Assembly: GCA_002780795.1 (NCBI GenBank)
Contig: PEUF01000055.1
Span: 1 to 39,913 of the forward strand
Source: Candidatus Roizmanbacteria bacterium CG02_land_8_20_14_3_00_36_15
GTDB taxonomy: Bacteria > Patescibacteriota > Microgenomatia > UBA1406 > GWC2-37-13
Length of the DNA: 39,913 nt
Reading direction: 5' to 3'
Below the pieces are notes generated by a model. That model saw only the letters and a list, made by a program, of their open reading frames with translations. It had not been told where the DNA came from and did not search any database. This document shows, in pieces, positions 6,025-21,815 of this stretch. Numbering within the stretch: the first letter of the stretch is position 1; each line of letters starts with the position of its first letter. The position numbers were made by a program, and so were the translations under genes.

Positions 6025-6053
6025 ATTTACAACCTTAGCGGTTCATGGGCGCA

Positions 6054-6104
6054 GTCCTATACCGAATGGTATACGGACGAAGTCCTGTATCAAATGGTAC
6101 AGGA
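6054..6104. repeat. Two tandem hairpins of the intergenic family
   Basis: Hairpin one, at 6054-6078, is GTCC plus TATACC-GAAT-GGTATA plus GGAC with one bulged C. Hairpin two, at 6083-6104, is TCCTGTATC-AAAT-GGTACAGGA. Both begin with AGTCCT and share CAAAT/CGAAT-GGTA loops with the hairpin at 2539-2560. They follow the stop of the plus-strand membrane gene, but no T-run follows, so a terminator role is doubtful. Confidence 0.55.
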
Positions 6105-6189
6105 ATAAAATATCAAGATGAATTATTGTCTGCGGAAAAAGCGACGAAGGAAAAAAGAGCTGGGATTTGGAGTTTATAAATTGTTTTAT

Positions 6190-7489: not shown

Positions 7490-7543
7490 AAACAACTCTT
7501 ATTGTAGCAAAAGTTTTAAAAAACTCGTCAAATTTTGAAGATT

Positions 7544-7630
7544 ACAACTTTACACCTTACAACTTTACACCTCAGAGGTGGGAATAGGTGGGAATAATTT
7601 ACACCTCAGAGGTGGGAATAGGTGGGAATA
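7544..7630. repeat. Left direct-repeat array
   Basis: A 15-bp tandem pair (ACAACTTTACACCT plus T/C, at 7544-7558 and 7559-7573) runs into two identical 33-bp units at 7564-7596 and 7598-7630. Each unit consists of TTTACACCTCAGA plus two GGTGGGAATA decamers and contains the palindrome ACCTCAGAGGT. The stop codon of the next gene lies inside the second unit. The same unit recurs on the far side of that gene. Confidence 0.9.
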
Positions 7631-8586
7631 CGCCTCCGACTCTTCGGATGAGAGAGTATAATATCAGCACTGTAATTCATAACTGGATTAGTTAAGACTG
7701 ATTGGAACTTCATAAGGACTCTTATAAAATTATCTGGTGATAAACCCTGCCTAGAAAATGCAAGGAGCGCTAATTGATCATATACAAAATTCCAAACGGT
7801 ACGAACTCTATCGATTTTTGGATGATTATAAAATCTGCTTCCATAATCAGTGATTTCATAAATTGATTCCTGTGGATCTCTATAAGATTGGGTAACGTCT
7901 TTTGCCCTTCCTTCTTCGACTAGCGTTTTTAACGCAAGATTTGCAAAGTTAACAAGTTGAGCTCTTTGTCTGTCACTATAAGGAGAATCAACGAAATAAG
8001 TTTTCATACTGCTCCATCTCCATGGTTCGGCGTATAAGTCTTCTTCTAGAAGTAACCTTGCGGCTCCTGAAGGGGTTAAGTATTTAAGAGAGCGGCGAGT
8101 GGCGCCTCTCTGAATTAATTCTTCACAGGACTGAACTTTATATCGAGTATGTTGTTCTTCATTAAGTATTGTCCAACCGGGTTGCACGAGCTTTGTGGTT
8201 AGAAATGTACGATACCGAGTCCGTTGTTCGTCTCGAAGGCGTTGTGGGGTAAAAAATAATATGTCGATCTCTCTTGGTCTAGATTGATCGGGTAAATGAA
8301 TCTGGTAAATAAAGTAACCAGCTCCTATTTGATTTGCATGTTCTGTTATCGCGTAAATATCAACGTCGCTCTTACGAGTCCGAAAATTCATACGACCTTC
8401 CGGAGACATTAAGGCTGCTGTTGAACCTCTCAAAACAGCTGTGTGTGCATTTTTTCCTTGCTGTGTAGAAGGAAATCCTGTAATTTGGTACAAGTCAAGC
8501 ATAGAATGGGGATCTGGTTGTTGAAATTTAAAAGAATTCCTATTACTGGGAAGTATTGGATTGTAGTTTAGAACTTCTTGTCTCAT
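7606..8586 (-). CDS. Putative nucleotidyltransferase-domain protein between repeat arrays
   Basis: A 326-residue protein. An N-terminal nucleotidyltransferase fold is suggested by LRGSTAALMSPEG, then RKSDVDIYAI and later REIDILFF: the GS, the D-x-D and the third carboxylate of the pol-beta superfamily, in the right order and strand context. The C-terminal two thirds are helical and unrecognised; DYGSRF and the following helices might be a winged helix or HEPN-like module, but I cannot tell. It is richer in Arg and Gln and poorer in Lys than its neighbours, which suggests recent acquisition. The last eight residues (RIPTYSHL) and the TGA stop are encoded by the direct repeat. Confidence 0.6.
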   Translation of the reverse strand: MRQEVLNYNPILPSNRNSFKFQQPDPHSMLDLYQITGFPSTQQGKNAHTAVLRGSTAALMSPEGRMNFRTRKSDVDIYAITEHANQIGAGYFIYQIHLPDQSRPREIDILFFTPQRLRDEQRTRYRTFLTTKLVQPGWTILNEEQHTRYKVQSCEELIQRGATRRSLKYLTPSGAARLLLEEDLYAEPWRWSSMKTYFVDSPYSDRQRAQLVNFANLALKTLVEEGRAKDVTQSYRDPQESIYEITDYGSRFYNHPKIDRVRTVWNFVYDQLALLAFSRQGLSPDNFIRVLMKFQSVLTNPVMNYSADIILSHPKSRRRIPTYSHL

Positions 8587-8650
8587 AAAATATAAAATTC
8601 ATCAGTTAATAGTATTATAAATTATTGACAAATCCTTTTATATAAGGAAC

Positions 8651-8725
8651 TTTACACCTCTGAGGTGGGAATAGGTGGGAATAAGTGGGAATAATTTACA
8701 CCTCAGAAGTGGGAATAGGTGGGAA
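8651..8725. repeat. Right direct-repeat array
   Basis: Two further copies of the 33-bp unit lie in the same orientation as the left array. Copy C (8651-8693) has a CTCTGAGG centre and three decamers (GGTGGGAATA twice, AGTGGGAATA once). Copy D (8695-8725) has one changed base in the palindrome and ends truncated. Together with the left array they bracket the nucleotidyltransferase gene. Confidence 0.9.
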
Positions 8726-9521: not shown

Positions 9522-9544
9522 ATAAATGTATAAGTCACAGACAT

Positions 9545-9680
9545 TACCCATGTACCAGCCCCGACGTAACGTCGGTACGGTACAGGGTTTCGCACTCAGA
9601 AACCCTGTTCGGACTGATGCCCCGAGCGCCACAGTGGGATACCCCACGTGGTGTCCCATAAGCTCGGGGAGTGCTTCACG
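9545..9680 (+). repeat. Structured multi-stem element, copy 1
   Basis: A 126-nt core (9551-9676) aligns without gaps to a second copy at 21686-21811, with about a dozen differences. Stems: TGTACC (9551-9556) with GGTACA (9579-9584); CCGACG-TAA-CGTCGG inside it (9561-9575); GGGTTTC with GAAACCC (9585-9605); CCCCGAGC (9620-9627) with GCTCGGGG (9662-9669), enclosing TGGGATACC/GGTGTCCCA (9635-9658). Flanking arms ATAAGT/ACTTAT may close the whole element. It lies between the pilin (minus) and the methyltransferase (plus). No known RNA family is recognised; it could be a non-coding RNA or a non-autonomous mobile repeat. Confidence 0.75.
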
Positions 9681-21610: not shown

Positions 21611-21680
21611 AATTAAACCGTTAAATATTAAAACTTAAACAGATAAAAAAGTTTTAAAGTTTAAAAGTTTAAAATGGTTT

Positions 21681-21815
21681 TACCATGAACCAGCCACGAC
21701 GTAACGTCGGGACGGTTCACGGTTTCGCACTCCGAAACCCTGTTGGTGCTGAAGCCCCAAGCGCCACAGTGGGATACCCCACGTGGTGTCCCATAAGCTC
21801 AGGGAGTGCTTAACA
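21681..21815 (+). repeat. Structured multi-stem element, copy 2
   Basis: The core (21686-21811) is colinear with the copy at 9551-9676. The outer stem here is TGAACC with GGTTCA instead of TGTACC with GGTACA, a compensatory T-A to A-T change that supports a folded RNA or DNA hairpin. CGACG-TAA-CGTCG and GGTTTC/GAAACC are kept. The 39-nt stretch covering TGGGATACC/GGTGTCCCA is identical in both copies. The CCCCAAGC/GCTCAGGG stem has two mismatches. It lies between two pilin genes on the same strand and is flanked by AT-rich TTTAA repeats. Confidence 0.75.

Follow-up and report, generated by a model that had tools for sequence, protein, structure and literature searches.

A short palindromic repeat of Patescibacteria and Omnitrophota, very probably a transposase-less relative of IS200/IS605 elements

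Several families of small palindromic or single-strand mobile DNA elements have been described in prokaryotes. The insertion sequence IS608 inserts 3' of TTAC and keeps this target on its left; its guides lie 5' of hairpins, guide GAAT matching the right cleavage site TCAA and guide AAAG the left site TTAC, and a C is preferred after the target (PMC5934647). Palindrome-associated transposable elements (PATEs) are known from Haloquadratum walsbyi. They are too short for a transposase, have neither terminal inverted repeats nor target duplication, carry palindromes near both termini and a target-like terminal oligonucleotide, and resemble IS605-type transposons in their ends (PMC3119063). REPs and BIMEs are small hairpin elements linked with the Y1 transposase TnpA_REP (RAYT), and the Marinomonas enzyme selects its cleavage sites through a tetranucleotide (PMC8266576). 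Rickettsia palindromic elements (RPEs) are short palindromic repeats that occur in frame in unrelated genes (PMC10969869).

Here we describe a repeat of Candidatus Roizmanbacteria bacterium CG02_land_8_20_14_3_00_36_15, found in a stretch of 39,913 nt (contig PEUF01000055.1) that is hereafter called the window. All of the above features of PATEs recur in it and by these features it fits their definition (PMC3119063), but it belongs to another host group, has another sequence and some in-frame gene insertions, and is set apart by two extra clamps, the stems P1 and P2. We conclude that it is very probably a non-autonomous IS200/IS605 relative of the PATE kind. With IS608 it shares insertion 3' of a TTAC kept on the left, the position of the guide 5' of the hairpin and a three-position pairing between guide and cleavage site, which is seen nearly always at the right end and, in the long forms, at the left end (PMC5934647). 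Unlike IS608, it has no tnpA or tnpB, and hence lacks the Y1 tnpA gene of its own that marks an autonomous IS200/IS605 element; its right site is TCAC and not TCAA, C is not preferred at +1, and the short forms have no left guide. Like REPs and BIMEs it is a small hairpin element with Y1 transposases in most host genomes (PMC8266576), but it is one composite unit of approximately 60–150 nt with no transposase gene inside, rather than a single or paired REP, and as a rule no RAYT gene is linked to it. Instead of the GTAG tetranucleotide and CT cleavage site it has GAAG, GATG, GATA or GGTG together with TCAC, TCAT or CCAC. RPEs are of similar length (PMC10969869), and the likeness drawn to them here concerns behaviour. 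The element matches neither a classical MITE, a GTAG-type REP nor a known RNA family, and it has no TnpB partner in its own genome.

Two ungapped copies of a 126-nt core (9551-9676 and 21686-21811) had been recognized in a sequence-only reading of the window, and the dozen or so differences estimated there are exactly 12. The wider repeat around the core is 140 nt long, with 89% identity between the copies. Its parts are as follows, all on the forward strand of the window.

9544-9547 (+), target TTAC, held once, left of copy 1; TTAC precedes 41 of 52 copies and is single in empty sites
9548-9679 (+), copy 1, element proper, 132 nt, both ends intact; boundaries sharp across copies, 103.5 bits with the covariance model
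9546-9556 (+), 5' arm of P1, ACCCATGTACC, its first two bases AC being part of the target; P1 pairs over 40 elements
9579-9588 (+), 3' arm of P1, GGTACAGGGT, including A9582 of the compensatory pair T9553:A9582
9561-9575 (+), apical hairpin of P1, CCGACG TAA CGTCGG, the short form without left guide AAxG, as compared with long forms
9585-9605 (+), lineage-specific hairpin GGGTTTC/GAAACCC, not conserved; absent in genomes G224, G051 and others
9592-9596 (+), 5' arm of P2, GCACT; 24 of 28 genome-distinct P2 types are fully paired
9616-9619 (+), right-end guide GATG, placed by the guide:cleavage-site rule
9620-9669 (+), P3, the right-end hairpin CCCCGAGC ... GCTCGGGG, placed by alignment
approximately 9628-9659 (+), extra lineage-specific hairpin in the P3 loop; missing in loci L014, L015 and most relatives
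9670-9674 (+), 3' arm of P2, AGTGC, from the P2 pairing counts
9675-9679 (+), right cleavage site TTCAC, which terminates the element; from copy ends, pairing rule and empty sites
21684-21814 (+), copy 2, element proper, 131 nt, from sequence, alignment and 83.4 bits; TTAC ahead at 21680-21683

The covariance model, built from seven homologous cores, two of them from the own genome and stripped of the loop insert, found these two convincing matches in the window and no others. Copy 2 has lost one C at its left end and has TTAAC for TTCAC at its right end, and because of this damage it is probably inactive. The compensatory change reported for the outermost stem is real, T9553:A9582 of copy 1 being A:T in copy 2. 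The sequence-only reading also saw several perfect stems. The repeat does fold better than shuffled sequence on either strand (z -2.7 to -6.4), but the perfect second hairpin at 9585-9605 is not conserved in homologues. The same is true of the TGGGATACC/GGTGTCCCA hairpin on which that reading laid stress: it exists in both window copies, but is a lineage-specific insert in the P3 loop, absent from L014, L015 and most relatives. Missing from its list of stems was P2 (9592-9596 with 9670-9674), which is conserved, and the feature taken to be present in two copies occupies approximately 17 loci in the source genome.

The boundaries of the element are sharp. Nearly all copies end in (T)TCAC, and outside TTAC and (T)TCAC the flanks hold little information, with a mild T/A bias on the right, where T or A most often follows the insertion. 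No inverted repeat is formed by the termini, TTACCC... and ...GCTTCAC. The left and right 5-mers are identical in only 2 of the 52 copies, and therefore there is no target duplication; TTYAC on both sides was considered as such a duplication and rejected, since the two sides vary independently. At the nucleotide level, empty sites matching insertions of G224 were found in G162, G180 (two loci) and G190, each with a single TTAC. The G162 site reads AAAGCAGAACGTTAC and then directly TTTTTAT, while those of G180 and G190 read GCTGACCCAC or the like and then directly CTGCA. A third site, in G215, could be aligned across at lower identity and is a more diverged empty site. A single TTAC is therefore retained, to the left of the insertion, and the TTCAC at its right is part of the element.

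Comparison of 41 elements from 18 genomes revealed three common stems. P1 has the form ACCC(MW)GNACC ... GGTNCRGGGT with one bulged base, and its most variable pair is AT, TA or CG and is paired in 38 of 40 elements. P2 links the stretch after P1 to that immediately before the right end. It occurs as GCAC/GTGC, GCGC/GCGC, GCCT/AGGC, GCTC/GAGC, GCCC/GGGC, ATCC/GGAT, GGAC/GTCC and ACTC/GAGT, and the 24 fully paired types compare with 6.5 when partners are shuffled; P2 was absent from the model by which the elements were located. P3 is the right-end hairpin, with GATG or GAAG directly 5' of it. Judged from this covariation, P1 and P2 appear to be two conserved clamps additional to the standard IS200/IS605-type ends. 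In the own-genome copies the hairpin GGGTTTC/GAAACCC competes with the base of P1. A pseudoknot, in which a loop pairs with the 3' end, was rejected, as P2 is simply nested in homologues without the second hairpin. Elsewhere in the window (approximately 6040-6106, minus strand) tandem hairpins with TGTACCATTTGATACAGGA and GCCCATGAACCG, which look like degenerate P1-type stems, lie between two genes.

The right end consists of a guide GAxG, the hairpin and TCAC. The four nucleotides 5' of P3 pair with the right cleavage site at the three IS608 positions in 29 of 34 elements (18.4 by shuffling), and compensatory double changes are seen in GATA/TCAT and GGTG/CCAC. Among 20 IS200 elements carrying tnpA, 19 from Patescibacteria and one from Omnitrophota, 19 obey the same rule (5.5 by shuffling). 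In the 54 right ends the guides and hairpins were delimited by hand, and the first YYAN after the hairpin was taken by rule as the cleavage site. The IS200 of G453 came to light through its right-end match to the orphan-element model, and this end, GATG-hairpin-AG-TTTCAC, directly overlaps the end of tnpA. At the left end, long and short forms can be distinguished. The long forms, found in ten genomes (G006, G051, G171, G224, G227, G250, G260, G414, G494 and one Omnitrophota MAG), have a P1 that encloses AAxG, then a hairpin and after it usually ATGAATGG. In all of them AAxG is the left guide required by the IS608 code for TTAC, and a tnpA-carrying IS200 of Omnitrophota (L177) has a similar left end. 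The short forms, both window copies included, have no AAxG and seem to have lost the left-guide part. Whatever the form, the last two bases of TTAC, AC, can pair with a GT at the base of P1. The genome G112 holds near-identical IS200-type copies (L206, L207, L224-L226) with the right end GATG-hairpin-AGTGTCAC and 13 Y1 matches, at least 10 of them identical in score; this is apparently an active autonomous element obeying the same right-end code.

The source genome (1.06 Mb in 59 contigs) has 19 matches at its approximately 17 loci, which were read locus by locus. The copies share sharp boundaries, a left TTACCC and a right GCTTCAC, between unrelated flanks, and are dispersed in both orientations relative to neighbouring genes. 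The search of related CPR genomes with a covariance model, suggested together with the sequence-only reading, yielded further homologues of like architecture, in which P1 and P2 covary. Within the class, 29 of 281 genomes have homologues at E <= 0.01 and 17 of these at E <= 1e-4; matches at E 1e-4 to 1e-2 are not all genuine members, and the G103 copies have the left stem alone in common. G224 has up to 13 near-identical copies. In other classes of Patescibacteria 13 of 380 sampled genomes have a match at E <= 1e-4, and a degenerate-pattern search of the named GTDB collection found the element in Gottesmanbacteria, Roizmanbacteria, Chisholmbacteria, Kerfeldbacteria and four Omnitrophota MAGs, with five matches each in a Kerfeldbacteria genome and one Omnitrophota genome. 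From these matches, Patescibacteria and Omnitrophota with strongly reduced genomes appear to have one very small mobile element family in common. A phage or virus as its carrier was rejected: phage records contain no match to the element, and an exact-pattern search of IMG/VR gave none either. Open-access text on RAYT or IS200-type miniature elements in Patescibacteria contained nothing on it.

Most copies are intergenic. Three insertions keep the reading frame, introduce no stop and allow the host gene's frame and length to be restored exactly, and it is by this behaviour that the element is likened to RPEs. In the own genome a hexokinase gene carries a 132-nt insertion (44 aa) that is absent from nine aligned homologues of other genomes; in Kerfeldbacteria a UvrD helicase gene carries one of 84 nt (28 aa); and in a prepilin gene of Omnitrophota the TTCAC end of a 123-nt insertion rebuilds the FTLIELL motif. 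Selection against frameshifts is the simple reading of these insertions, and adaptation is not claimed on three cases. A second P1-like stretch lies in frame near the 3' part of this same Kerfeldbacteria uvrD-like gene (L142 / L170, GAPHRATKGGSGAG region), which suggests that two insertions of the family are present in it. The hexokinase (L163, G000:C10) also contains in frame, at residues approximately 367-411, a second and unrelated dispersed repeat of approximately 115 bp. The latter is likewise in frame in an acetyl-CoA synthetase-like gene, its loci include L162 (G000:C42) at 2340-2453, and a relict of it stands beside an element copy in L003 (1638-1737); in-frame repeats may be common in this genome.

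In the window, the neighbours of copy 1 are a divergent pilin-type gene on one side and a methyltransferase gene on the other, and copy 2 has a pilin-type gene on each side. The sequence-only reading had offered a cruciform site near pilin genes as one explanation. Pilin-type genes do adjoin both window copies, but other copies stand in unrelated contexts and the pilin neighbourhood looks incidental. On contig G000:C43 two paralogous genes starting MKIPKSLHRYFWDVN / MIIPKSLHRYFWDVN (L007 and L016) each have an element copy just upstream.

Which enzyme moves the element is the point on which the strongest competing explanation turns. In this view the element is of the REP/REPIN kind, and it is mobilized by the TnpA_REP (RAYT) encoded in its host genomes instead of an IS200-type TnpA; the single-strand mechanism would be the same. 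RAYT-length Y1 genes are indeed present in genomes with many copies, five in the own genome, which has no other Y1 genes, and others in G224, G250 and G260, and the two own genes that were scanned match NCBIfam REP_Tyr_transpos, below the cut-off. Y1 genes are also somewhat commoner in genomes with the element (25 of 29 vs 166 of 252, p = 0.018), but two MAGs with five copies each yielded no Y1 gene, although MAGs are incomplete. In G171 a related element with the right end GATA/TCAT (G171:C90, L123 39-131) is separated by 14 nt from the start codon of a RAYT gene downstream of it, and the tetranucleotide-dependent choice of cleavage sites by the Marinomonas TnpA_REP is a parallel (PMC8266576). 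However, the tetranucleotide is GAxG, GAxA or GGxG and not GTAG, the site is TCAC or TCAT and not CT, and the element is not built of two REPs in inverted order. In the own genome it flanks none of the five Y1 genes, which are flanked instead by other short palindromes. We therefore regard movement by RAYT as possible, if rather unlikely. Nor did the scanned loci reveal a cognate transposase gene within the element or linked to it. An IS200 TnpA of G218, approximately 500 nt from an element, was considered as cognate and set aside as a coincidence, as it has hairpin ends of its own.

Some further observations concern the neighbourhoods of these transposase genes. The GATA/TCAT element of L123 recurs on several G171 contigs. 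The short contig G218:C31 (L139) combines an element copy, an IS200 and a DDE-type transposase-like gene, and may be a contaminant or a mobile-element cluster. Immediately ahead of the start codon, the five own-genome RAYT genes (L020-L024) all carry similar versions of a 20-bp motif, TTGTAG(A/C)NTATAGTC(C/T)(G/A)TTGA-like, perhaps a promoter or an autoregulatory site. In the window, repeats that contain the palindrome TTTACACCTCAGAGGTG plus GGGAATAGGTGGGAATA (7542-7628 and 8629-8725) stand on both sides of an ORF at 7606-8586 (minus strand) that has no Pfam match. They look like dispersed REP-like repeats of the RAYT of contig C54, because the same palindrome also flanks that gene (L023).

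A small structured RNA, one of three options in the sequence-only reading, or a cis-regulatory RNA, in either case spread by recombination, is very unlikely. The stable folds and the strong covariation of P1 and P2 would be expected of an RNA as well, but the orientation of the copies to adjacent genes varies, some copies are located within coding sequences, the TTAC target is fixed, and covariation between guide and cleavage site is of no use to an RNA. That code and the insertions in coding sequences point to a single-stranded-DNA transposon. As that reading had supposed, the repeat belongs to no known RNA family, and Rfam 15 gave nothing at the gathering score or at permissive E-values. A new RNA family was rejected, there being no Rfam match and the distribution being accounted for by mobility.

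IS605-type right ends serve also as omega-RNA 3' ends in TnpB systems. Together with the target-like TTAC at the left, this could favour an omega-RNA-like guide RNA, a remnant of a TnpB transposon that now serves a TnpB nuclease in trans; such an origin is nevertheless highly improbable, as the own genome (G000) has no match to the TnpB C-terminal domain PF07282 and the copies have left ends too. Least credible of all is a classical MITE of a DDE transposon, which would likewise be short, multicopy, dispersed and without a gene of its own, but should have terminal inverted repeats and a target duplication, in conflict with the termini, the 5-mers and the single TTAC of the empty sites.

Among the options first offered it is thus the non-autonomous mobile palindrome that stands, on the evidence of sharp ends, dispersed copies, empty sites and IS200/IS605-type ends; the other two are not supported. 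A match to a known transposon end, which the sequence-only reading had set against its proposal, is found in architecture and pairing rule but not in nucleotide sequence. Points that count against the IS200/IS605 reading are the lack of a linked transposase gene, the RAYT length of every Y1 gene in the own genome, the two MAGs with five copies but no Y1 gene, the missing left guide of the short forms, the departure from the IS608 preference for C after the target, and the manual delimitation of the right ends. As a transposase-less IS200/IS605 relative, the element would be mobilized by a Y1 (HUH) tyrosine transposase supplied in trans, which would bind the end hairpins of the single-stranded element while each guide recognizes its site, TTAC or TCAC, by base pairing. 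We infer that the excised element is a single-stranded circle, which is then inserted 3' of another TTAC. With P1 enclosing the left hairpin and P2 the right, it would fold into a compact single-stranded unit, and in the long forms P1 could pair with the left guide as well. Our guess is that these stems give stability, or hide the guide until the enzyme binds.

A more specific proposal is that P1 and P2 form a built-in control layer which keeps the single-stranded unit shut until a host RAYT opens it. Within P1, CxTT would be paired to the left guide AAxG, and the target AC would be paired as well, while P2 would close the right end. We consider this proposal speculative and improbable. If it were true, REPs would not be the only mobile substrate of the supposedly domesticated RAYT, and in minimal genomes new protein segments would arise from recurrent in-frame insertion.

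The element would read its cleavage sites by DNA-DNA base pairing, and its guides and cleavage sites, changing together, provide naturally occurring material for comparative work on the IS608 pairing code. With its ends and target known, such repeats can be annotated and need not be mistaken for new RNAs. The in-frame, stop-free insertions into conserved genes extend RPE-type behaviour to another branch of the bacteria.
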